Assembly: GCF_016938855.1 (NCBI RefSeq)
Contig: NZ_JAFHAP010000019.1
Location: 1 to 44,874 of the forward strand
Direction: 5' to 3'
DNA length: 44,874 bases
Origin: Polycladomyces zharkentensis
Lineage (GTDB): Bacteria > Bacillota > Bacilli > Thermoactinomycetales > JIR-001
Position 1 is the stretch's first letter. Each line of letters begins with the position of its first letter. The notes under the pieces were generated by a model. That model was not told where the DNA came from, did not search any database, and was given only the letters and a program-made list of their open reading frames with translations. The position numbers were made by a program, and so were the translations under genes. Shown one piece after another: positions 3,920-38,942 of the stretch.

Positions 3920-4130
3920 GTGCATCATGTTCCCGGCTCGTTCCACCTGCACCCTGCAAAGAATGAATGCAAGACCGCTTCGAACCGGGGAGCGCAGGAC
4001 ACGGGCATTTCGCTCAGAGAAAATTGCCCGCGATTTTGCTCCTGCGCTTCCGGTCCATCACCGGGACGGGCTCAGGTCTGGTCACTCACCCGGAAAAACC
4101 ATGCCCCTCTGATGAAATGTCCGGACAGCC
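3920..4130 (+). repeat. MITE-like repeat family A, copy at the end of icmF
   Basis: Contains the family landmarks in order: TTCCCGGCTCGTTCCACCTG, CACCCTGCA, GACCGCTTCGA, the CGGGCA block, ATTGCCCGCGATTTTG, CTGCGCTTCC, CACCCGGAAAAACCATGCCC, and an end ATGTCCGGACAGCCTGA. The icmF stop codon lies about 10 bp beyond. The 5' terminal GTGTCTGGT is not clear in this copy. Confidence 0.7.
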
Positions 4131-10179: not shown

Positions 10180-10279
10180 GTGCTCTCCCCCGCTTCCCTC
10201 GTTTGTATCCCTGCGGGATGACGGGTCCGTTCATCGGTCCCTCTCCACTCCGTCTCTTTCTGGTCCCGCATCCCGCCAG

Positions 10280-10515
10280 GGCATGTCTGGTGAATACCGC
10301 CCATATCGCTTTCCCGGCCCGCTCCGCCTGCACCCTCAAGGAAGCAGATCATGACCGCTACGACCGGCCCCGGCGCAGGGTGCGGGCAAAGCAAGCTTCG
10401 CTTGGAGGAACCCGGGATTCCATTCCTGCGCTTGCCGGGACTTTGCTTCGCAGGGCATTTTTTGGGTCGCTCTCCCGGAAAAATATTGCCCCTTTACGGA
10501 ATGACCAAACACACT
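10280..10515 (+). repeat. MITE-like repeat family A, nearly full copy
   Basis: Begins GGGCATGTCTGGTGAAT (TGTCTGGT at 10284-10291) and ends ATGACCAAACACAC (10501-10514), so the termini are imperfect inverted repeats. The internal blocks match the other copies (CGCTTTCCCGGCCCGCTCC, GCAGATCATGACCGCT, GCGGGCAAAG, AGCTTCGCTTGGAGGAA, TCTCCCGGAAAAAT). About 235 bp. It fills the space between the two acyl-CoA dehydrogenase genes. Confidence 0.8.
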
Positions 10516-12818: not shown

Positions 12819-13053
12819 GGCATGTCTGATCAATATTTCGCACCATCGCCTTCACGGTTCGCTCCACCTGCAATCTCAAAAGATGCAGATCATGCCCGCT
12901 TCGACCCGGAGTGCAGAATGGAAAGTACGATTCATTTGGAGGAACTTGCCCGTGATTTCGTTTCTAAGCTTTCCGTGTCTTCGCTCGGTCGGTCTTGGCA
13001 AGCCGCTCTCTTTGGAAAGTATTTCTTCTAACGGATTTACCGGACACACCCTG
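12819..13053 (+). repeat. MITE-like repeat family A, nearly full copy
   Basis: Starts GGGCATGTCTGATCAAT and ends ACGGATTTACCGGACACACC. Internal blocks: TTCGCTCCACCTGCA, GCAGATCATGCCCGCTTCGA, GGAGGAACTTGCCCGTGATT, TCTTCGCTCGGTC. About 235 bp. It fills the spacer between hbd and thl. Confidence 0.78.
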
Positions 13054-21521: not shown

Positions 21522-21750
21522 GTCGTGTCCGGTAAAGCCGTGAAAGAGCAAATCTTTCCCAGGTGAGCGAAGACCCAAGCCCGGTGAGCGAAGAACCGGA
21601 AAGCGCAGACATGGAATCGCGGGCAACTTCCTCTAAACGAAGCGTACTTTATCCGCGTCCTGCGTTCCGGGCGGAGCGGACATAACCTGTCCCCTGCGGG
21701 CGCAGATATTACAATCCGGGAAAGCGATGGGACAGGATTCACCAGATACG
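21522..21750 (-). repeat. MITE-like repeat family A, inverted copy
   Basis: The only clear copy in the opposite orientation. Read on the minus strand: TATCTGGTGAATCC, ATCGCTTTCCCGGAT, GACAGGTTATGTCCGCTCC, GGATAAAGTACGCTTCG, GAGGAAGTTGCCCGCGATTC, CTGCGCTTTCCGG, TCTTCGCTCACC, ending GGCTTTACCGGACACGACC. It lies between fadF and the lipoprotein gene. Confidence 0.75.
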
Positions 21751-21837
21751 CTCTGGTTGAAGAGGTGAATGGATTTCCATCCTCCGACAAACATTAATCT
21801 CAAAGCATCCTCATGGTACGGTGAAAGGGGAAGGGAC

Positions 21838-22559: not shown

Positions 22560-22770
22560 AGGTTCTGATCCATATCACCGGTATCGCTTCCCGGTTTGCT
22601 CTATCTGCACCGCTCAGAACCGAAGAGGCAGGACGCGGGCAAAGTACGCTTCGCTTGGAGGAAATGGCCCAAGATCCCATCCTCAGCTCTCGGTTCTTTA
22701 CCCGGTCAGGCTGGAAAAAGTCGCTCACCCGGGAATTGACTTCCTCACCGGCATGACCAGACACACCCTG
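22560..22770 (+). repeat. MITE-like repeat family A, copy abutting gpsB
   Basis: Blocks GTATCGCTTCCCGGTTTGCTC, GCGGGCAAAGTACGCTTCGC, TTGGAGGAAATGGCCC, TCGCTCACCCGGGAA and the end GCATGACCAGACACACC. The 5' end is worn. It finishes about six bases from the gpsB stop codon on the opposite strand. Confidence 0.72.
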
Positions 22771-28618: not shown

Positions 28619-29386
28619 TTAAAAATAGTTGCTGGTAATCCCGCCGTCGATCGTGATGACCGCACCGTTGGTCCAGTCGGATTCGTCGGAGGCAAGGTAA
28701 ATTGCGCAATGGACAATATCCTCCGGACGGCCGAACCGCCCGCTGGGTTGACGGCTCAACCGGATGCGACGGGCTTCCTCATCCTTCAACAGCCATTCCG
28801 TCATCAACGGCGTTTCAATCGGCCCCGGACAGATCACATTGCTTCGAATCCCTTTGGGCCGGAATTGAATGGCCAGCGATTTGGTGAGGGAAATCACCGC
28901 TCCCTTGGAAGCGGTATAGGCGTCTTGGGGCACACTGCACCCGACCAGGGCGACAAAGGAAGCAATATTGATGATCGACCCTTTCCCCTGTCGGATCATA
29001 TGGGGGATCGTGTATTTGCAGGTCAGAAAGATGCCCCGGACATTCACCGCCATCACCTGGTCCCACACCTCGACGGACGTGTCAATGACGGAGTGATCGG
29101 CTTCCGGCATGATTCCCGCGTTATTGTACAACACATCCAGCCGGCCGAACCGTTCGTGTGCTCCTTCGATCGCCTGCTTCACACTGGCCTCATCGGCAAC
29201 ATCACAGGGGAAGAAAGCCGCTTCTCCCCCTTGTCGGACGATGAATTCGGCCGCTTCTCTCCCCGCCTCTTCGTTACGTTCCAGCACAGCGACTTTGGCT
29301 CCCTCGGCGGCAAACATTTCCGCCGCCTTTCTGCCCATCCCGCTGCCGGCACCGGTGATGACAGCCACTTTCTCTTTCAGGCGCAT
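28619..29386 (-). CDS. Short-chain dehydrogenase/reductase (SDR)
   Basis: A 255-residue classical SDR: cofactor loop TGAGSGMGRKAA near residue 13, DVADEAS, NNAGIMPEADH, catalytic Ser in NIASFVAL, Tyr-x-x-x-Lys in YTASKGAVISLTKSLA, and a C-terminal IDGG. It oxidises an alcohol or reduces a ketone with NAD(P). The ATG at 29386 has AGGAGGG seven bases upstream; the upstream in-frame extension reads poorly. Placed after a glutamine-synthetase-like gene and an aldehyde dehydrogenase, it may oxidise an amino-alcohol or hydroxy intermediate, but this is inference. Confidence 0.88.
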   Translation of the reverse strand: MRLKEKVAVITGAGSGMGRKAAEMFAAEGAKVAVLERNEEAGREAAEFIVRQGGEAAFFPCDVADEASVKQAIEGAHERFGRLDVLYNNAGIMPEADHSVIDTSVEVWDQVMAVNVRGIFLTCKYTIPHMIRQGKGSIINIASFVALVGCSVPQDAYTASKGAVISLTKSLAIQFRPKGIRSNVICPGPIETPLMTEWLLKDEEARRIRLSRQPSGRFGRPEDIVHCAIYLASDESDWTNGAVITIDGGITSNYF

Positions 29387-29547
29387 AAAAGTCCCTCCTG
29401 CCATTGTGTGAATATCCCTGTTTGATTTCCGAGTGAGTCTGATTTGCCAAGGTCGCCCACTGGAAACAAGCCACCCTTCACGCAATTCGGTGAATGCTTC
29501 CTTGAATCCGCCTGAAAATGCACGGTCTACTGGCGCGAATCACTTCA

Positions 29548-29616: not shown

Positions 29617-30987
29617 TTATATACGTTCAAAGTAGCGCCGTTTTTCCCAATCGGTGACGATTCGGTCATATGCTTGCTGTTCCACCCGGGCGGCATTCAG
29701 GTAGTGAGCGGCGACCTCCTCTCCCAATGCCTTCCGAACAAACCCGCTTTCGGAAAACGCGACGATCGCTTCGTACAGCGAAGCAGGGAGACGGTGTGTA
29801 CCGGTCTGGTTATATCCGTTGCCGTCGCAAGCCGCTTCCAGCTCGTAGCCTTGTTCGATGCCTTCCAATCCGGACGCGATCATGGCGGCATATGCGAGAT
29901 ACGGGTTGGCATCGGCTCCGGGGAAACGGTTCTCGATGCGCAGGCTCTCCCCTTTGCCCACGATCCGCAGTCCGCAGGTCCGGTTATCCCAACCCCAAAC
30001 GATGTTGGTCGGTGCCCAGCTGGCGGTGATGTACCGTTTGTAGGAATTGACATTGGGAGCAAACAGGATCGCCGTCTCCCGCATATGGCGAATGACGCCC
30101 GCAAGGAAATGGCGCATCGTCCGTGACATGCCCCGCTCCTCCTCCGGATCGTAAAAGGCATTTTTCCCACGTTCCCGGTCCCTCAAGCTCACGTGAATGT
30201 GACAGCTGGAGCCGGTCCATTCGTGATCCGGCTTGGCCATAAACGTCACCGCCACCCCTTGCTGGATCGCCATCTCCTTCATCCCGTGTTTCAGCAACAC
30301 ATGCCGGTCGGCTGCCTCCAACGCCGGACTGTACCGCACATTGATCTCATGCTGGGCGATACCCGCTTCCCCTTTGGTGCACTCCACCGGAATTCCCGCC
30401 TGTGTGAGTTGCTCCCGGAACAAACGGTACAAGGGTTCGTTTCGCGTTCCCTGCAAAAGTTGATAATCTTCATTATAATGGCCGCCCAGGTTTAACCCTT
30501 CATACCCCTTGCTCCACGCTTCTTCGTAGGTATTCCGGATCAGGTAAAACTCCAGCTCGCTCGCCATGTACGGATCAAAGCCCAGTTGTGCGGCACGTTC
30601 CAACTGACGCTTCAAGACTGTGCGTGGCGCGATCTCCACCAGCCGACCTTCTTCATCGACCACATCCGCGAGGATCAGGGCCGTTTTTTCCAACCAAGGG
30701 ATCAGGCGAAGCGTCTCCCAATCCGGTCGAGCTGTCCAATCGCCGTATCCTTTTTCCCACCCTACCGCGGAAAATCCCTGCGGGGTGGTCATCTCCATAT
30801 CCGTTCCGAGTAAATAATCACAAAAATGCGTACCTTTATCCATGACTTCAAGGAAATAACCCGCCGTCAGCCGTTTGCCGACCAACCTCCCCTGCATATC
30901 ACAAAACCCCAGGATGACCGTATCCACCACATCTTCGGCAATCCATTGCTTCAAAATATCCGGGGTTGCCGTCTGTATTGTCGTCAT
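29617..30987 (-). CDS. Glutamine-synthetase-family gamma-glutamyl-amine ligase (PuuA/IpuC-like)
   Basis: A 456-residue GS-fold ligase that would join the gamma-carboxyl of glutamate to an amine using ATP. Visible are ASELEFYL (metal site), GEAGIAQHEINVRY, the HEWTGSSCHIHVSL metal/nucleotide region and the SLRIENRFPGADANPYLAYA segment. GlnA-specific features such as the adenylylation loop are lacking, and the context is catabolic. This favours a gamma-glutamylpolyamine- or gamma-glutamylalkylamide synthetase over true GlnA. ATG 30987 has AAAGGGG seven bases upstream. It begins 25 bp after the aldehyde dehydrogenase, clearly in one operon. Confidence 0.85.
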   Translation of the reverse strand: MTTIQTATPDILKQWIAEDVVDTVILGFCDMQGRLVGKRLTAGYFLEVMDKGTHFCDYLLGTDMEMTTPQGFSAVGWEKGYGDWTARPDWETLRLIPWLEKTALILADVVDEEGRLVEIAPRTVLKRQLERAAQLGFDPYMASELEFYLIRNTYEEAWSKGYEGLNLGGHYNEDYQLLQGTRNEPLYRLFREQLTQAGIPVECTKGEAGIAQHEINVRYSPALEAADRHVLLKHGMKEMAIQQGVAVTFMAKPDHEWTGSSCHIHVSLRDRERGKNAFYDPEEERGMSRTMRHFLAGVIRHMRETAILFAPNVNSYKRYITASWAPTNIVWGWDNRTCGLRIVGKGESLRIENRFPGADANPYLAYAAMIASGLEGIEQGYELEAACDGNGYNQTGTHRLPASLYEAIVAFSESGFVRKALGEEVAAHYLNAARVEQQAYDRIVTDWEKRRYFERI

Positions 30988-31012
30988 GGAATCGCCCCTT
31001 TCTCCCGATTGT

Positions 31013-32467
31013 TTACAGATTGATCGACAGATACTTGAGGTTGAGAAATTCTTCCATGCCGTAACGTCCGCCTTCCCGTCCCTGCCCGCTCTCTTTGATC
31101 CCCCCGAACGGTGCCTGCGGGACGCTCAGAGAGGTGCCATTCACCGCTACCATGCCGAATTCCAACCCTTCCGCCACTGTGAAGGCACGACGGATATCCT
31201 TGGTGAAAAAGTAAGCGGCCAGTCCGTAAGGGGTATCGTTCACCCGTTTCACGATCTCCTCCTCACCGGAGAAGGAAACCACGGGTGCCACCGGACCGAA
31301 GATTTCCTCCTGCGTGATGCGCATATCGAAGGTCACACCGGACAACACGGTAGGGGCGTAGAAGGTTCCCCCCGCAAACGGCCCTTCTGACAGCCGCTCA
31401 CCGCCGGTCAAGATCTTCGCTCCCTTCTCCACCGCATCCCGAACCAGATCATCGATTTTCCTGATGCCGGCTTCATCGATCACCGGGCCGATCTCGGTCC
31501 CCGGCTCCCAGCCGAAACCGACTTTCAGCCGCTTTACACGGTCGACCAATTTTTGCAGGAAATCGTCCAGCAAACGCTCATGAACATAGATGACGTTGAT
31601 CCCGTTGCACATCTGTCCGCAATTCTCAAATTTATTGCCCACCGCGGCAGTCACCGCCCGATCCACGTCCGCATCAGCAAACACGATCAACGGTGCGTTG
31701 CCGCCCAGTTCCAACGACAGCCGTTTCACCTGCCGGGCCGAGGCTTCGATCAGATGTTTGCCCACCTCGGTGGAACCGGTGAAGGAGATTTTTCGCACCT
31801 TGGGATCATCCAGCAATGCTTGTCCGATTTCACCCGCGTTTCCCGTCACCAGATTGGCCACACCGGACGGCAGTCCCGTCTGATCCAGCAATTGCATGAG
31901 AGCAGCGGCAGTCAAGGGAGTCTGGCTGGCCGGTTTTAACACCACCGTACATCCGGCGGCCAGTGCGGCTGCCATTTTTCGCGTCACCATCGTGGCCGGG
32001 TAGTTCCATGGGGTAATCAATGCCGCCACGCCCACCGGCTGGCGAATCACCAAGATGCGTTGGTCGCGTTTGGAGCCGGGCAGGGCCTCCCCCGCCACCC
32101 GTTTGGCTTCTTCACCGTACCACTCCGAAAAATCCGCCGCCGCATCCACTTCTTCCAACGCTTCCGACAAAGGTTTCCCCTGCTCCATCGTAAGCAGGCG
32201 CGCCAACGACTCCCGGTTGCGACGGATTTCCTCCGCCCACTTTTTGAGATAGGCTCCCCGTTCGGCGGCCGTCAAACCGGACCAGGCGGGAAATGCCCGA
32301 TGTGCGGCATCGACGGCTTGTGCTGTTTCATTTCGGCCTCCTTTGGGTACGTCTCCGACTACCTCCCCGTTGGCGGGGTTGACCACGGTAACCGTTTCGC
32401 CTGATTCACTGTCCACCCATTGCCCACCGATCCACATCCGCTGATGGATCGCTGTCCATGTCTGCAT
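31013..32467 (-). CDS. NAD(P)-dependent aldehyde dehydrogenase (succinate-semialdehyde dehydrogenase-like)
   Basis: A 484-residue ALDH of the GabD branch: VAALITPWNYPATMVTRKMA, KPASQTPLTA, FTGSTEVGKHL, catalytic Glu in LELGGNAP, catalytic Cys in ENCGQMCNGINVIYV, and the EEIFGPVAPV and PFGGIKESGQGREG motifs. It oxidises a semialdehyde to the acid. ATG 32467 is set by GGAGGGAG; the upstream frame is inside a repeat. In Puu-type routes such an enzyme (PuuC) acts on the gamma-glutamyl-aminoaldehyde or on succinate semialdehyde. It directly precedes the GS-like ligase. Confidence 0.93.
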   Translation of the reverse strand: MQTWTAIHQRMWIGGQWVDSESGETVTVVNPANGEVVGDVPKGGRNETAQAVDAAHRAFPAWSGLTAAERGAYLKKWAEEIRRNRESLARLLTMEQGKPLSEALEEVDAAADFSEWYGEEAKRVAGEALPGSKRDQRILVIRQPVGVAALITPWNYPATMVTRKMAAALAAGCTVVLKPASQTPLTAAALMQLLDQTGLPSGVANLVTGNAGEIGQALLDDPKVRKISFTGSTEVGKHLIEASARQVKRLSLELGGNAPLIVFADADVDRAVTAAVGNKFENCGQMCNGINVIYVHERLLDDFLQKLVDRVKRLKVGFGWEPGTEIGPVIDEAGIRKIDDLVRDAVEKGAKILTGGERLSEGPFAGGTFYAPTVLSGVTFDMRITQEEIFGPVAPVVSFSGEEEIVKRVNDTPYGLAAYFFTKDIRRAFTVAEGLEFGMVAVNGTSLSVPQAPFGGIKESGQGREGGRYGMEEFLNLKYLSINL

Positions 32468-32616
32468 GATCTCCCTCCTGATTCCATCGTTTTGATCCGG
32501 GTGAGTCCAGGGTTGTCTGGTTGATCCCTCTTGTCCGGATGCCATTGTTCCCTGTCACAACCGTTTTGCATCTCATCATCCGGCTCCAAGCGACTTGGCA
32601 GGCCAATGCCACCAGG

Positions 32617-32849
32617 GCGTGTCTGGTGTTGTCCACAGTGTTTTCCCGGCTCGCTCCACCTGCGCCCTGCAGGGATGCAGATGATGACCGCTCCGACCCG
32701 GTCAGCGCAGTTCGCGGGCAAAGTACGCTTCGCTTTGAGGAAATTGCCCGCGATTTCAATCCTGCACTTCCCAAGTCTTCGCTCAGTCAGGGCTTGGTCA
32801 GTCGCTCGTCCGGAAAAACATGGCTCCCTTACGGAATGACCAGACACGA
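32617..32849 (+). repeat. MITE-like repeat family A, nearly full copy
   Basis: Starts GGCGTGTCTGGTGTTGTCC and ends ATGACCAGACACG, giving matched terminal inverted repeats. Internal blocks: TTTTCCCGGCTCGCTCCACC, GCAGATGATGACCGCTCCGA, GCGGGCAAAGTACGCTTCGC, GAAATTGCCCGCGATTTCAA, GTCCGGAAAAACATGGC. A second partial terminus (GGGTTGTCTGGTTGATCC) lies at about 32511. No gene seen in 32468-33002. Confidence 0.8.
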
Positions 32850-33002
32850 ACCAGTGCCAATGCTATTAGCCCGCCTCGAAAAGATCGCGGGTAAAAGGCC
32901 ACCCTTCTCCCAGTTCGATGTATGACCAAACCCACTCGAGTCCCCTGTTGGCAGACCTTCTCCTCATACCGACAAACGACCAATCGCGTCCCGAAGGATC
33001 AA

Positions 33003-34202
33003 TCAGGCTCTGTCTTCCCGCGGGTTCGCCAAGGGTGTACAGGACATCAGCAGGGCCAACAAAGACGTACGCGGTACTACGCTTTCCGGTTCGATATATT
33101 CGTCCGGTCCGTGATCCAATCCGCCTACCGGCCCCAACCCGTCCAAACAAGGAACACCCTGCGCGGCGATCCAATTGGCATCGGACCCCCCTCCCGTATC
33201 CGTGTCCCGCAAGTGAATCCCCAGGAACGCCGCACACTCCCGGGCCAAAGCAGCCAGCCGATCGGTCGCCGGATTGCGGACCATGGGCGGAAACCACAGC
33301 TTCAGGTCCGCTTCCGTTCTCGCGCCGGAGATGCCCGACCGGGAGACCGCCTCCCGCACCAACGCCTCCACTCGGGAAACGGCATCGGGATGAAACAGAC
33401 GAATATCCAATTGTGCCTCAGCCCGATCCGGTACCACGTTGGACTGGGTTCCGCCCCGGATCGTCCCGATGTTGATCCGAAAGGTCCCCTCCTCCGCCGC
33501 CCGTTTCCGGAGCCACTGGAGACGATCGATCAACTCCACGACGGCATTGGCTCCTTTCTCCGGCTCCACACCCGCATGAGCGGATCGGCCGTGGGAGGTC
33601 AATGTCAGCTGGATCACCCCCGCCCGGGCACTGACGATATCCCCGTTGGCCCGCGCCGCTTCCAACACATAGACGGCATCCATCCCGGACAGCAATTCGA
33701 TCATCCGGTTCCGGGTGTGAAAAGAGCCGGTCTCCTCCTCGCTGTTCACTACCAGACGAACTTCGCCAAAATCCTCCCATCCCAATCTGCACAACACCTG
33801 AACAGCGTAAAGCCCCACCAACAAACCGCCCTTCATGTCACATACACCGGGTCCCATTAAGCGATCACCACGGCGTTGCATCGGCCGCGCTTCCGCCGTT
33901 CCGTCAGGGTAGACCGTATCGGCATGCCCCAGCAAACCGATCCGCTTCTTCCCGCTTCCCTGCATCCGTCCCACCCACAATCCGGCACATCCTTCGATTG
34001 GCAGATGAGACACTTGAAAACCCGCGTCCGCCATCCAACCGGCGAAAATGTCCCCCACCCGTTTCACGCCCGCAGGGTTTTGCGTGCCGCAATCGATTTC
34101 CACCAGTGCCCGCAATCGTTCCTCCCAACCTGCCGTCACGTCAGCGGCAACAGAGCGGATTTGATCAGGCGTGAATGATTTCCTTGACGAGGGATCGTTC
34201 AT
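33003..34202 (-). CDS. M20-family metallopeptidase, carboxypeptidase G2-like
   Basis: A 399-residue zinc amidohydrolase. Metal ligands are visible: His in GLLGHADTVY, bridging Asp in GPGVCDMKGG, Glu pair in VNSEEETGS, Glu in YVLEAARANG, and C-terminal His in GGLDHGPDEY; the dimerisation domain lies between (HGRSAHAGVEPEKGANAV). CPG2-type enzymes release glutamate from N-acyl conjugates. ATG 34202 has AGGAGG six bases upstream. It is transcribed with the GS-like ligase and ALDH. It may split the gamma-glutamyl amide formed by the ligase, replacing a PuuD-type hydrolase. That role is inference. Confidence 0.88.
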   Translation of the reverse strand: MNDPSSRKSFTPDQIRSVAADVTAGWEERLRALVEIDCGTQNPAGVKRVGDIFAGWMADAGFQVSHLPIEGCAGLWVGRMQGSGKKRIGLLGHADTVYPDGTAEARPMQRRGDRLMGPGVCDMKGGLLVGLYAVQVLCRLGWEDFGEVRLVVNSEEETGSFHTRNRMIELLSGMDAVYVLEAARANGDIVSARAGVIQLTLTSHGRSAHAGVEPEKGANAVVELIDRLQWLRKRAAEEGTFRINIGTIRGGTQSNVVPDRAEAQLDIRLFHPDAVSRVEALVREAVSRSGISGARTEADLKLWFPPMVRNPATDRLAALARECAAFLGIHLRDTDTGGGSDANWIAAQGVPCLDGLGPVGGLDHGPDEYIEPESVVPRTSLLALLMSCTPLANPREDRA

Positions 34203-34254
34203 TGTTTTCCTCCTTTTCGGGCAATATCGTATGCATCATTTTTACGAAGAAAAA

Positions 34255-34436
34255 GAGCAAGACCGCATGGACCGGTGGCAACGCCGGTAAATGCTTCGCT
34301 TGGGGCGGTCCGGTAGCTGGACCTTGCACCCTGCAAGGAATCAGATCGCTCCGGAGTGCAGGTCGTTCGTCCGGGGTGGTTTTTTCGACCGCTTGGAAAA
34401 ACATTGTCCCTTTACTGAATGACCAAACACACCCCG
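34255..34436 (+). repeat. MITE-like repeat family A, rearranged copy
   Basis: Contains AAATGCTTCGCTTGGGGCGG, CTTGCACCCTGCAAGGAATC, GCTTGGAAAAACATTGTCCC and the end GAATGACCAAACACACC, in a disturbed order. The 5' terminus is not found. It fills the spacer between permease and M20 peptidase genes. Confidence 0.6.
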
Positions 34437-34529
34437 GCAGAAATGGCCATTGATGAATGCCACCATGCAACCGGCAGGGCATTCGGTCAACCGGAAACCA
34501 TCATCCGCTGATCGAATAGCCGGCACACC

Positions 34530-36068
34530 CTAACCCCCCAGCTCGGCTTCCCGCCGGGCCAACTCCTCGGCCGACACCCGCAAGGCCGCCTGAGGACCGG
34601 GGAAATGATCCCGATAATATGCCAAATCCATGACCAACAAGATCAACATCATCGCCACGAGTGCGATCCCTGCATTTTGATTGGGTGGTATCACCATCAC
34701 CACACTGATCAACACGATCCACATCAACGCGGCAACAGCAACCGGCTTCCCCCACCTTCCCAAATTCCACGGTCCCAGATGACGCGGGGTAAATCGGCCT
34801 TTCGCCTCGGCAACCAGCCGGAGCCAAATGGGAATCCCGTAGGAAACGTACAGCCCCACCACGCTGACCCCTGTCAAAAAAGCAAGGGTGGTGTAGGTGG
34901 TATCGGGGTTGACCATTTTGATGAAATAGTCAACCAATGCCAGGACGAACGACAAAATGACCGACAACCAAATCGCCTGAACGGGTGTCCGGTATCGTTT
35001 GCTGATTCGGGCAAACCAATCGCTGCGCGGCATCCCCTTGTCCCGCGCAAAAGCGTACACCATCCGGGAGAATGAAGTGATGGAAGAAAGGCCGCAAAAC
35101 CACATGGCCAACACGATCAACCACAAAATCGTTTGACCGAAGGCAGTGCCCAATGCCTGGCTGATCACATAAATGAACGGATTTTCCGCAGATACCGCCG
35201 CCTTCACATCATGGACGGACAAGGTAACGAAAGCCAACATCACCATCCCGGCCACAAAGGAAAACGCAACGGATGAGAAGATTCCCCATGGCGCCCGCAC
35301 CCGGGGGTTAATCGTCTCCTCTATGGTGTGGGCTGAAGCGTCGTATCCGGTAAACGTCCATTGCGCCTGCAGCAAACCGATAAGAAAGGCCAGCCAATAC
35401 GGCTTGTCCGAAAACGTTTCTCCCAGCCGGAACAAGGTATCGATCGGTTGCAGGGGACGCTGTCCCAGAAAGGCCAAGCTTACGACCAAAATCAGCACCA
35501 CCGCAATGTGATACCAAGCGGAAAAATCGTTCAGCCTGGCCACTATGCGAATCCCCACATGGTTGAGGATGCCGTGGGACAACAGCACGAGAGCAAACCA
35601 GATCAATGTGGTTGTCTCCGTCATTTGATAGCCCAACACCGGCGAAAGCAAACCGTCGGCAAAAAGGGCGACCGAGTAGTCAATGCCCGCCACGATTCCG
35701 ATCTGGCCGATCAGGTTGATCCAAGCCGTATACCACCCCCAGCGTTTGTTTCCCAAAAGCGAGGCCCAATGGTACAACGCCCCCGCCGTCGGGATGGCGG
35801 AGGCCAGCTCAGCCATGGATGCGGCCACCAACATGCAAAACAAGGCCACCAGCGGCCACCCGAAGCCCATCATGCCCGTCCCGCCATAAGTCAATCCGTG
35901 ACCGTATAATGATACGGCACCGGTCAAAATCGAGATGATGGAAAACGAGATGGCAAAATTCGAAAACCCGCCCATGTCCCGCAACAGTTCTTGGGCATAG
36001 CCGAATCGGTGCAACAGCTTTTTGTCCTCGGACAACTGGATCTCCTTACGAGATTTGCTGGTCGTCAA
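34530..36068 (-). CDS. APC-superfamily amino acid/amine permease (ACT family)
   Basis: A 512-residue, 12-TM importer of the amino acid/choline transporter branch of APC (2.A.3.4-like): GGFSNFAISFSIISILTGAV in TM1, YGGTGMMGFGWPLVALFCM, MAELASAIPTAGALYHWASL in TM2-3, TGYDASAHTIEET. Members carry GABA, choline, polyamines or amino acids. The TTG start at 36068 has GGAGGGG six bases upstream and overlaps the preceding small gene by 23 bp, implying coupled translation. It heads, with that small gene, the minus-strand set containing the M20 peptidase, ALDH and GS-like ligase, so it probably imports their substrate. Confidence 0.9.
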   Translation of the reverse strand: MTTSKSRKEIQLSEDKKLLHRFGYAQELLRDMGGFSNFAISFSIISILTGAVSLYGHGLTYGGTGMMGFGWPLVALFCMLVAASMAELASAIPTAGALYHWASLLGNKRWGWYTAWINLIGQIGIVAGIDYSVALFADGLLSPVLGYQMTETTTLIWFALVLLSHGILNHVGIRIVARLNDFSAWYHIAVVLILVVSLAFLGQRPLQPIDTLFRLGETFSDKPYWLAFLIGLLQAQWTFTGYDASAHTIEETINPRVRAPWGIFSSVAFSFVAGMVMLAFVTLSVHDVKAAVSAENPFIYVISQALGTAFGQTILWLIVLAMWFCGLSSITSFSRMVYAFARDKGMPRSDWFARISKRYRTPVQAIWLSVILSFVLALVDYFIKMVNPDTTYTTLAFLTGVSVVGLYVSYGIPIWLRLVAEAKGRFTPRHLGPWNLGRWGKPVAVAALMWIVLISVVMVIPPNQNAGIALVAMMLILLVMDLAYYRDHFPGPQAALRVSAEELARREAELGG

Positions 36069-36219
36069 CCATGTCCCCCTCCTTCACGCTCCCCAAGAAA
36101 CTTTCATGCGCTTCCTCGTTGAAAGAGCGCACATTCCGGTTGGCGATCGCACCGATCGTCACCGCCACCACGCAAGTGGCTGCGATCAACAACAATCCCC
36201 ATACCGTCACCCGAACCAC
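36046..36219 (-). CDS. Small single-pass membrane protein coupled to the permease
   Basis: A 57-residue frame from GTG 36219 (GGGAG six bases upstream; GTG 36210 is the alternative). It encodes one transmembrane helix (VWGLLLIAATCVVAVTIGAI) followed by a conserved-looking cytoplasmic tail (ANRNVRSFNEEAHESFLGSV). Its last 23 bp overlap the permease start, whose ribosome site lies within this gene. A promoter with -35/-10 is 37 bp upstream. It may be an auxiliary subunit of the permease, comparable in arrangement to MetS-type small subunits of other transporters; I know of no named family. Confidence 0.65.
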   Translation of the reverse strand: MVRVTVWGLLLIAATCVVAVTIGAIANRNVRSFNEEAHESFLGSVKEGDMVDDQQIS

Positions 36220-36255
36220 CTCTTTCTCCCGATTGCCATCAATGATGATATGGTC

Positions 36256-36284
36256 AGTGTAACACAAATAAAGTTAATGTTCAA
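36256..36284 (-). promoter_or_regulatory. Promoter of the permease operon
   Basis: Minus-strand -35 TTGAAC (36284-36279), 17-bp spacer, -10 TACACT (36261-36256). Confidence 0.68.
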
Positions 36285-36461: not shown

Positions 36462-37709
36462 TTGTACAGTTATGTCTCCCATCTTGCATGTCCGAAATGT
36501 CACCGAACCTACCGAGTGGAAGAAGAACATCATCTTTGTCTGTGTGGGTCTCCCCTCAGGGTGCATTATCATCTGGAAGAGTTAAAAAAGATATACCGGC
36601 CCGTTCATTTGACGGGAAGGGAGAACACCTTATGGAGATATCATGAGCTCCTGCCCGTTCAAACTCCCGAGCATGTCGTTTCCTTGGGCGAAGGAATGAC
36701 TCCGTTGATTCCCATGTTCAAAATCGGTCAAGAGATGAACATTGCCAAATTGTACATGAAAGATGAAGGCTCCCTTCCAACCGGGACATTTAAAGCGAGG
36801 GGAGCGGCCGTCGGTGTGTCAAAAGCAAAAGAACTGGGTATACGGGAGATAGCCATGCCAACCAACGGGAATGCGGGCGCTGCCTGGTCGCTCTATGCGG
36901 CAAGAGCCGGTATTCGATCCCATATCGTGATGCCGGTCGATGCCCCGGAGATCACGCGGAGTGAGTGTGCGATTGCCGGCGCCCGCCTGTATCTTGTCAA
37001 CGGTTTGATCAGTGACGCGGGGAAAATCGTGGCACAAGGGATACAGGATTTCCACTGGTACGATGCCTCTACGCTGAAAGAACCATACCGGATCGAAGGG
37101 AAAAAAACCATGGGTCTGGAAATCGCCGAACAGATGGAGTGGAAATTGCCTGACGTGATTTTATACCCCACAGGAGGCGGAGTGGGATTGATCGGCATTT
37201 ACAAAGCACTGCAAGAATTGCGGGAACTCGGTTGGATTCAGGATCGGCTTCCCCGGTTGGTTGCCGTACAAGCGGAAGGATGTGCCCCCATTGTCAAAGC
37301 GTGGGAAGAAAAGAAAAGGGAATCCGAATACTGGCACAATGCCTCCACCGTTGCTTTTGGAATCAATGTACCGAAAGCGTTGGGAGATTTCCTTGTACTG
37401 GAAGCGATTTACCAGACTGAGGGATGTGCGATCGCAGTGGACGATACTTCCATTTTGGAAGAACAAAAGCGGATCGCCCGGTTGGAGGGGGCGTTTGTCT
37501 GTCCCGAAGGAGCCGCAACGTTTGTTGCCGCTCGCCGCCTGAGAGAAAACGGTTGGATTCAGGAAGGAGAAACGGTTGTCGTGTTAAATACGGGAACAGG
37601 AATCAAATATCCCCGCACCATACAGGCAAAACCGCTCATGCTCCAACCGGGTGAACGCATCGCAATGAAATCCCGGGAAGGCATGGCCGATCGGGAAGTT
37701 GAATCTTAA
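36462..37709 (+). CDS. Threonine-synthase-like PLP enzyme
   Basis: A 415-residue fold-type II PLP protein. An N-terminal zinc-ribbon-like piece (CPKCHRTYRVEEEHHLCLCG) is followed by the catalytic domain: VSLGEGMTPL, PLP Lys in GTFKARGAAVG, substrate loop PTNGNAGAAW, and PLP phosphate loop YPTGGGVGLIGIYKAL. Threonine synthases convert O-phosphohomoserine to threonine; relatives make cysteate, 2,3-diaminopropionate or cystathionine-type products. The TTG at 36462 has TAGGAG about ten bases upstream. Only 27 bp separate it from the PLP gene downstream. No hom or thrB is adjacent, so it may be a specialised paralogue. Confidence 0.85.
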   Translation: MYSYVSHLACPKCHRTYRVEEEHHLCLCGSPLRVHYHLEELKKIYRPVHLTGRENTLWRYHELLPVQTPEHVVSLGEGMTPLIPMFKIGQEMNIAKLYMKDEGSLPTGTFKARGAAVGVSKAKELGIREIAMPTNGNAGAAWSLYAARAGIRSHIVMPVDAPEITRSECAIAGARLYLVNGLISDAGKIVAQGIQDFHWYDASTLKEPYRIEGKKTMGLEIAEQMEWKLPDVILYPTGGGVGLIGIYKALQELRELGWIQDRLPRLVAVQAEGCAPIVKAWEEKKRESEYWHNASTVAFGINVPKALGDFLVLEAIYQTEGCAIAVDDTSILEEQKRIARLEGAFVCPEGAATFVAARRLRENGWIQEGETVVVLNTGTGIKYPRTIQAKPLMLQPGERIAMKSREGMADREVES

Positions 37710-37736
37710 CTTTATTCCGGGAAAGGGAGAAGGGAT

Positions 37737-38942
37737 ATGAACAAACGCGATCATTTTCAAGAGCCAAATTTCGGTGAACTCAAAAATGAAACACTGGTGA
37801 TACATGCCGATGATGAGCTCACCAATGATGGAACGGTAGCTCCGGCGATTTATTACTCAGCCACGTTCCGCGCACGAGATTCCGCCGAATTCGCAGACAT
37901 GGCGGGAACTCCTCGCCATCCCCGATATTACACGCGTTACGGCAACCCGGTCCATGAACGCGTCAAGAAGGTGATGGCGGAGTTGGAGGGAACAGAAACG
38001 GCACTGGTCACCGGCTCCGGGATGGGGGCGATTGCGACAACCATTCTCGCGCTGGTCAGCGCCGGCGACCATGTGATCGCACAGACGCGGCATTATATGA
38101 GTACCGCCAAGATCATGGACGAGATGCTGCCGCGATTCGGTGTTGACGTGACCTTGGTCGAACAAGCCGACATCTCCGCCTTTGAAGCGGCGATTCGGCC
38201 CAATACAAAGCTCATCATGGTGGAATCGCCGGCCAATCCGACTTTGGTGGTGACCGATTTGGCTGCCGTGGCGGAGTTGGCCCGCCCACGCGGGATTATC
38301 GTTGTAGCCGATAATACGTTCGCGACGCCGATCAATCAACGGCCTCATGACCTGGGTGTCGATGTGGTTGTTCACAGCGCAACCAAATATTTGGGTGGTC
38401 ACCATGATTTGACGGCCGGCGTGATCTGCACCAGCGAAGAGTTGGCCGAGCGCATTTGGCACACGCATATCTCCATCGGCTCAGTTCTCTCGCCGATGGA
38501 TGCGTGGTTGCTATTGCGCGGTTTGCGTACGCTTCCGATGCGGGTCGAACGCATCAATGCCAACGCCCTCGCCTTGGCGGAGTTTCTGGAGGCACAGCCG
38601 CAGATCGAGCGGGTATATTACCCCGGACTTGCCAGCCATCCACAACACGAGTTGGCGAAGCGTCAAATGCGTGGTTTCGGGGGAATGATCGCCTTCGAAA
38701 TCAAAGGCGGTTATGAAGCGACAGAGCGCTTCGTTTCTGCACTGAAACTGTCGCTGAACGCAGTCAGCTTGGGCGGGGTTGATTCCCTGGTGGTACACAC
38801 TGCGGCGATGTGGGGAGGCGTGATGACCGAGGAACAAATGCGGACAGCCGGAATTCAGCCCAATTTCGTACGCTATTCGGTCGGACTCGAGCATATCGAC
38901 GACCTGAAAGCGGATCTGTTACAAGCACTGCAGGTGGTTTAA
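37737..38942 (+). CDS. Trans-sulfuration-type PLP enzyme (cystathionine gamma-synthase / gamma-lyase family)
   Basis: A 401-residue Cys/Met-metabolism PLP enzyme: PAIYYSATFRARD, YTRYGNPVHERVKKVMAELE, TGSGMGAIATTILAL, VESPANPTLVVTDLAAVAEL, VADNTFATP, PLP Lys in HSATKYLGGHHDLTAG, and a C-terminal VRYSVGLEHIDDL. Such enzymes make or cleave C-S bonds at the gamma carbon of homoserine derivatives. ATG 37737 has AAAGGGAGAAGGG just upstream. It is co-transcribed with the threonine-synthase-like gene and ends in a terminator. Which of synthase, gamma-lyase or methionine gamma-lyase it is cannot be told from the sequence by eye. Confidence 0.9.
   Translation: MNKRDHFQEPNFGELKNETLVIHADDELTNDGTVAPAIYYSATFRARDSAEFADMAGTPRHPRYYTRYGNPVHERVKKVMAELEGTETALVTGSGMGAIATTILALVSAGDHVIAQTRHYMSTAKIMDEMLPRFGVDVTLVEQADISAFEAAIRPNTKLIMVESPANPTLVVTDLAAVAELARPRGIIVVADNTFATPINQRPHDLGVDVVVHSATKYLGGHHDLTAGVICTSEELAERIWHTHISIGSVLSPMDAWLLLRGLRTLPMRVERINANALALAEFLEAQPQIERVYYPGLASHPQHELAKRQMRGFGGMIAFEIKGGYEATERFVSALKLSLNAVSLGGVDSLVVHTAAMWGGVMTEEQMRTAGIQPNFVRYSVGLEHIDDLKADLLQALQVV

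Follow-up and report, generated by a model that had tools for sequence, protein, structure and literature searches.

Degradation of ethanolamine by way of γ-glutamylation has been proposed for Streptomyces coelicolor, where GlnA4 (SCO1613), SCO1611, SCO1612 and SCO1615 are named in the pathway description (PMC6529630), and an ethanolamine pathway predicted for Chromohalobacter salexigens combines the families PF00120, PF00465, PF00171 and PF05013 (PMC9397018, Table 2). Herein we describe an operon of Polycladomyces zharkentensis (Bacillota; Bacilli; Thermoactinomycetales), located in a stretch of 44,874 nucleotides (RefSeq assembly GCF_016938855.1, contig NZ_JAFHAP010000019.1, positions 1 to 44,874) which is called the window in the following. 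As revealed by calling of open reading frames (ORFs) and Pfam, the minus strand encodes in order a 54-aa ORF, a permease, an M20 peptidase, an aldehyde dehydrogenase (ALDH), a ligase resembling glutamine synthetase (GS) and a short-chain dehydrogenase/reductase (SDR) (Table 1). The operon is real and conserved, and judging from sequence it is best read as a variant of the proposed pathway, namely an operon for γ-glutamylation of ethanolamine whose last enzyme is of a new kind. We give a probability of roughly 0.77 to the reading that it serves ethanolamine utilisation of the γ-glutamylation type with the M20 peptidase as the last enzyme.

The window has in common with the Streptomyces route a GS-like ligase, a short-chain dehydrogenase, an ALDH and a hydrolase, and a putative ethanolamine transporter is described there for other Streptomyces; the hydrolase SCO1615 belongs to the formylglutamate amidohydrolase family, with a figure legend naming a glutamine amidotransferase gene, whereas the window has an M20 peptidase (PMC6529630). 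The window ligase is likened to GlnA4 by the description of gene content and not by sequence. The C. salexigens pathway contains the same ligase and ALDH families, but it has an iron alcohol dehydrogenase where the window has the SDR and a PF05013 hydrolase where the window has the M20 (PMC9397018). Alphaproteobacterial plasmids are annotated with a matching make-up, including the iron alcohol dehydrogenase and PF05013. As for the Puu system of E. coli, it has the same γ-glutamylation logic, an ALDH and a permease, whereas it employs the amine oxidase PuuB and the hydrolase PuuD, and the identity to the window proteins is low. Carboxypeptidase G2 (CPG2; PDB 1cg2) agrees with the window M20 in family and in metal-ligand motifs, while the operon context predicts γ-glutamylglycine as the substrate of the latter. 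The γ-glutamylation route without an M20 step is therefore already proposed in print for Streptomyces and Chromohalobacter (PMC6529630, PMC9397018). PMC3369936 places ANTAR target leaders in the vicinity of glutamine synthetase and ethanolamine genes, and the link of EutV to these ligases may be partly foreseen there. Among the literature matches listed, subscription journals and supplements aside, no title or abstract joins EutVW or M20 to the γ-glutamylation ethanolamine route.

The catalytic steps which we infer for the window would run as follows. The permease, perhaps together with the 54-aa protein, would import ethanolamine; the GS-like ligase would convert ethanolamine, glutamate and ATP into γ-glutamylethanolamide; the SDR would oxidize the alcohol of this compound to γ-glutamylglycinal; the GabD-like ALDH would carry γ-glutamylglycinal to γ-glutamylglycine; and the M20 peptidase would finally release glycine and glutamate, the latter being recycled. 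In this last step the M20 would take over from the C26 or N-formylglutamate-amidohydrolase-type enzyme of other organisms, and it would probably act only after both oxidations, since an M20 carboxypeptidase should require a free carboxylate at the C-terminus of its substrate. The original prediction, made from the sequence of the window alone, had outlined uptake and γ-glutamylation followed by SDR/ALDH oxidation and by release of glutamate through the M20, which is still the best reading of the steps; its presumed kinship with Puu and its unspecified amine are not supported, as described below.

The ligase and its conserved partners

The window ligase stays below the cut-offs of both GS models, TIGR00653 (237 bits, cut-off 429) and TIGR03105 (264 bits, cut-off 470), and far below that of the γ-glutamylputrescine synthetase model NF045547 (223 bits, cut-off 650). 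It is 31% identical to PuuA, 39.6% to IpuC and 44.8% to PDB 5dm3, a C. salexigens ligase which is, with PDB 11zs, the closest solved structure; close kinship with Puu, as originally supposed, is not supported by these values. Moreover, Trp324 aligns to the glutamate of the YEAP motif in the host GlnA, a residue important in true GS. At this column, the 56 aligned rows besides the host GlnA (the window, PuuA and 5dm3 included) have W in 35 cases, F in 10, G in 7, Y in 4 and E in none. The host genome contains just one further GS-family gene, on contig C8, which is taken as the true GlnA. With scores below the GS cut-offs, Trp324 and a separate GlnA, the gene looks like the GS-like ligase of the γ-glutamylation ethanolamine pathway, and it is flanked by the SDR and the ALDH as the alcohol and aldehyde dehydrogenases of that pathway. 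The sequence thus speaks against an enzyme active solely as glutamine synthetase, which had been named as a refuting outcome along with the original prediction. The closest named match is found in Lihuaxuella thermophila (83%; Thermoactinomycetaceae), where records very near the source genome were possibly excluded. In the ligase tree, which leaves out L027, L031, L032 and L085, the window ligase falls into a clade of 11 that includes five EutVW-linked ligases (support 100/99), and it shares 63-67% identity with the five nearest EutVW-linked ligases.

To place the operon among relatives, ligases were searched at a threshold of E<=1e-80 in overlapping draws of genomes, giving ligase-positive genomes in 24 of 299 for the class, 34 of 398 for a second class draw, 11 of 42 for the order and 6 of 398 for a phylum draw. 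After removal of one duplicate, 43 Bacillota loci have a ligase profile score above 400, and the ALDH-GS-SDR core is present in 31 of them. Dropped from these counts are L027, which is on the same contig as L035, and L032 and L085, whose partial ligases score below 400, while L075 is counted as core with its SDR truncated by the contig end; same-genus genomes are close kin, and the locus counts are not counts of independent events. Across the core loci compared by BLAST, the SDR (68-98% identity) is the partner of the ligase. The conserved-neighbourhood analysis suggested with the original prediction turned out in its favour, as the order permease-M20-ALDH-GS-SDR is identical in all six genomes of the order having this M20, the six representing three genera and not six independent events.

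The permease has TIGR00907 as its best NCBIfam model, below the cut-off, and its relatives of 72-97% identity adjoin the same core genes. The 54-aa ORF gives tblastn matches at the permease in all 10 other loci with a permease of this class (duplicate removed), that is in 11/11 with the window included, and no match (E<=1) in the other loci searched, which have permeases of 35-43% identity. The protein reaches the cut-off of no Pfam or NCBIfam family, and it is possibly a small partner of the permease.

Besides the core loci, several related arrangements were observed. Seven loci (L052, L060, L081-L084 and L087) with M20 peptidases of a group called M20c have ligases of a second subfamily, in operons with an M20 and a distant SDR and mostly also an ALDH and a permease; they are excluded from the ethanolamine count. 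Their ligases are 40-43% identical to that of the window, and the SDR is 37% identical in L052 and L060. A sigma-54 activator adjoins the cluster in L052, and a C26-like gene lies 3.3 kb away in L087. The amine handled by this subfamily is probably different, because the M20c genomes G022 and G258 also carry EutB; none of the EutV elements (see below) in these two genomes lies at the M20c cluster. Also outside the core of 31 are L029 (9923-13677, Bacillaceae bacterium JMAK1), where ligase, M20 and iron alcohol dehydrogenase genes stand in a row, and L031 (Geomicrobium sp. JCM 19038), where the ligase reading frame is split and an M20 and an iron alcohol dehydrogenase are present.

The hydrolase slot before the ALDH gene

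The hydrolase type described for γ-glutamylglycine (PF05013 or C26) is absent from the operon and an M20 is found instead, and for this reason the operon is filed as a variant. ORFs, Pfam and BLAST agree with the original statement that the operon has no PuuB or PuuD gene, and BLAST for both gave no match in five neighbourhoods of the window-type M20 (M20a) or among the window operon proteins. In the survey of the order (E<=1e-60), this M20 occurs in 6 of 42 genomes and in each of the six stands one gene, the ALDH, from the ligase, in line with the predicted co-occurrence; five further ligase genomes of the order are without it. The position immediately before the ALDH is held by the M20 in 6/6 M20a loci and by a C26 in five of the six C26 loci. 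Within 8.5 kb of the ligase, the 31 core loci have an M20 in 15 cases, a C26 in 6, no recognised hydrolase in 10 (L039, L041, L042, L044, L045, L073, L075, L076, L077 and L086, of which L075 is cut by a contig end) and both in none. Such a pattern of replacement upholds the earlier idea of an M20 in place of a PuuD-family (C26) enzyme.

The window M20 matches CPG2 with E=4e-39 and stays below the NCBIfam glutamate carboxypeptidase cut-off (285 versus 349 bits). The alignment shows the CPG2 metal ligands and catalytic Glu preserved in M20a, with H93, D95, D122, E155, E156, E181 and H364 identical in all six sequences; the metal ligands are presumably among these positions. Groups b and c have D at E155 and C at E181, and in groups d and e, which belong to another subfamily (TIGR01891), H93, E155 and E181 are unmatched, some of them possibly misaligned. 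Asn255, Arg268 and His209 are identical in all 24 cluster M20s. Residues of this kind help bind the substrate carboxylate in the M20 family, so cleavage would wait for the oxidations.

The M20 tree, with 24 cluster rows and 25 background rows, puts the cluster M20s in three places: a, the window type (100/98), b+c (100/100) and d+e (98/99). The split of a/b/c from d/e is supported at 100/100, background paralogues lie between a and b+c, and a and b are only 23-28% identical. As a long-branch warning applies (L103, L107, L118, L098, L104 and others) and support for separating a from b+c at the deep fork is weak (87/68), the three places rest mainly on the d/e split and on the background rows between a and b+c. 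Considering tree places and cluster context together, M20 peptidases appear to have been recruited to this route at least three times. M20b adjoins the ALDH on the opposite strand in 6/6 loci of one genus, and in the five M20b genomes tested, which belong to family f14, no full-length C26 match was obtained; M20e has its own EutV element in 3/3 loci. In the C26 tree, only the single clade formed by the six cluster C26s of Bacilli (100/100) is relied on, since the deep forks are weak. One full-length C26 gene of the host lies outside the operon (C4:191564-192184) and groups with background C26s outside the cluster-type clade; among these is the background copy of G249, a genome that also has a cluster C26.

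Ethanolamine as the candidate substrate

The EutV/EutW antitermination switch and EutH are known from the B12-dependent pathway. Of the 31 core loci, 17 have EutV, and EutH is found in 6 that all belong to a single genus. Pfam on the scanned proteins gave EutH in L047, PdtaS-type kinases in L028, L040 and L041 and ANTAR regulators in L028, L039 and L040, and the remaining EutV, EutW and EutH calls were made by similarity to these proteins. The permease in the cluster of G249 passes the ethanolamine permease model TIGR00908 (494.7 versus 381.75), as does the 'eat' permease that stands in a row with ligase and SDR, with no ALDH there, on a Thermomicrobium roseum plasmid (436 versus 381.75). In an Aminobacter plasmid cluster, the bhc genes come next; glyoxylate and glycine are the compounds they work on, which fits glycine as the product of the route.

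Most of the listed leaders have an EutV-type element, consisting of AAGTRAA, a spacer of 6-12 nt and then RGCAANGRNGCY with a T run. The hairpin has three pairs and a six-base loop with A at the first and G at the fourth loop position, which matches one of the two hairpins of the EutV target given in PMC3369931; the other published hairpin, the first of the two, is not demonstrated, and AAGTRAA as its loop is an assignment by eye. When upstream regions were searched for dual hairpins with stems of at least four pairs, none of the 44 from EutVW loci and none of the 68 from other loci matched; a looser search gave 1 of 44 (0.5 expected) and 2 of 68 (0.85 expected), respectively, again nothing clear. 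The elements are located upstream of ALDH, EutH, permease, C26, EutW and M20 genes; before the M20 ORF they lie at 315 nt in L028, at 72 nt in L078 and at the first possible start codon in L030.

The pattern was derived from six leaders read by eye, which led to three-pair stems, then to a loose scan of all ligase loci and, from the matches of that scan, to the strict pattern. The cluster matches are partly circular for this reason, which does not apply to the sites at EutB or to the lack of matches in the rest of these genomes. In 32 genomes the strict pattern has 30 matches, versus 3 when it is reversed. Of the 30, 24 fall in the 17 genomes with cluster EutVW, none of them farther than 7 kb from the ligase, and the 13 genomes without cluster EutVW, the window's included, have none; six of the 13, again including that of the window, have an ANTAR gene elsewhere. 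The remaining 6 matches are in G022 and G258: in each, one element lies 103 nt upstream of an EutB match, and the other four are on contigs with an ANTAR gene and a second EutB, within 10 kb of it. EutB is absent in 20 of the 22 genomes tested, among them the window's genome. The host ANTAR gene, which adjoins a major facilitator superfamily transporter and resembles EutV at the 25% level across 150 residues, was not used as evidence.

The original prediction left the amine unspecified, and the context of the relatives points to ethanolamine. For the window operon itself, descent and shared parts make ethanolamine the likely substrate, as its ligase falls into a clade with five EutVW-linked ligases. 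This argument goes through the relatives because the window cluster lacks EutVW and its genome lacks the EutV element. Several points weigh against our reading: besides this lack, the operon has no ethanolamine-specific regulation or transport gene of the kind present in relatives, and its permease is not of the TIGR00908 type; 14 of the 31 core loci have no EutV; the 10 core loci without a nearby hydrolase imply that the hydrolase need not be linked, and the host has its C26 gene elsewhere. In addition, CPG2 releases glutamate as the amine-side residue, and with glycine on the amine side here, the M20 needs a specificity unlike that of CPG2. To our knowledge, activities of these proteins have not been measured.

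Some of these points would suit an operon of the same chemistry acting on another amino alcohol or amine, such as 1-amino-2-propanol, 3-aminopropanol or isopropylamine, with the M20 freeing the matching amino acid; the absence of EutVW and of the element, the different permease and the membership of IpuC in the ligase family all fit. We regard this as unlikely, as the ligase belongs with the EutVW-linked ligases and permeases of 72-76% identity are common to other core loci. The isopropylamine (Ipu) pathway was rejected, for the operon contains no P450 or ferredoxin, and the P450, ferredoxin and ferredoxin reductase genes flanking ipuC on pTC1 have no counterparts in it. No more probable is that the M20 is a co-transcribed supplier of glutamate from folate-like or N-acyl-glutamate compounds, with a C26 encoded elsewhere hydrolysing γ-glutamylglycine. 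The likeness to CPG2, the host C26 and the 10 core loci without a linked hydrolase agree with it, but the M20 takes the same slot as C26 and the two never occur together in the core loci, the cluster M20s come from three tree places, EutV elements precede M20 genes in L028, L030 and L078, and the host C26 groups with background copies.

Far less credible still is an incomplete operon of the Puu type for putrescine or GABA, or an ordinary glutamine synthetase within an operon for amino acids, with just general family likeness in its favour. Against it stand the 31% identity to PuuA and the low scores on all three models, together with the lack of a PuuB match, the host's own GlnA and the tryptophan at the YEAP glutamate. 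The Puu variant was rejected, given that PuuB and PuuD are not in the operon and NF045547 is far below its cut-off, and the plain GS was rejected on the GS cut-offs, the separate GlnA and Trp324.

Taking the ethanolamine reading further, it seems somewhat probable that some Bacilli have a cobalamin-free and microcompartment-free ethanolamine route, often wired to EutV/EutW and in one genus to EutH, in which different M20 subfamilies have taken over γ-glutamylglycine hydrolysis on at least three separate occasions, as has a C26 clade; the window would be the CPG2-like case, with a new 54-aa protein as partner of the transporter. If so, some Bacilli without ethanolamine ammonia-lyase would still use ethanolamine, and EutVW or EutH genes would be no proof of a B12-dependent route. 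Candidate γ-glutamylglycine hydrolases could then be named from M20 peptidases, with one reaction slot filled by unrelated enzymes, and the EutV element would provide a means to trace the regulon.

Operon layout and a dispersed repeat

The five genes with named families that had been predicted on one strand are indeed long minus-strand ORFs with Pfam matches. The range assigned to them, 29617-36284, holds the permease, M20, ALDH and ligase but not the SDR, and the conserved 54-aa ORF inside this range had been overlooked. The ALDH start is most likely at 32467, with a ribosome-binding-site-like stretch upstream, and not at 32545; its best NCBIfam model is succinate-semialdehyde dehydrogenase (616 bits, below the cut-off of 646).

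Table 1. Features of the operon in the window, with proposed roles
Feature	Position	Strand	Remark
54-aa ORF, one apparent membrane span	36046..36210	-	overlaps permease start by 23 nt; conserved by tblastn
APC-superfamily permease, TIGR00907-like; proposed ethanolamine importer	34530..36068	-	Pfam AA_permease_2
M20 peptidase, CPG2-like; proposed γ-glutamylglycine hydrolase	33003..34202	-	Pfam Peptidase_M20 and M20_dimer
GabD-like ALDH; proposed γ-glutamylglycinal dehydrogenase	31013..32467	-	Pfam Aldedh
GS-like γ-glutamyl ligase; proposed γ-glutamylethanolamide synthetase	29617..30987	-	Pfam Gln-synt_C
SDR; proposed γ-glutamylethanolamide alcohol dehydrogenase	28619..29401	-	Pfam adh_short_C2
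Dispersed repeat of ~240 bp in M20-ALDH gap	32605..32850	-	not a pathway part

Divergent from the operon, genes for a threonine synthase-like protein and a pyridoxal phosphate enzyme of Cys/Met metabolism lie at 36462-38942 on the plus strand, with the same position in G213 and G222. Rfam gave no family at threshold anywhere in the window. The repeat of ~240 bp in the M20-ALDH gap has further window copies at 10270-10512, 21523-21757, 12851-13008, 3930-4051 and 22609-22764 and a part at 34395-34430, and at least 42 matches in the genome (180 candidates, 40 scored). The operon gaps hold the one copy and the one short part, while the same gaps in G213 and G222 are without it. Several copies end in CGTGTCTGG...CCAGACAC, and the repeat looks like a miniature inverted-repeat transposable element.

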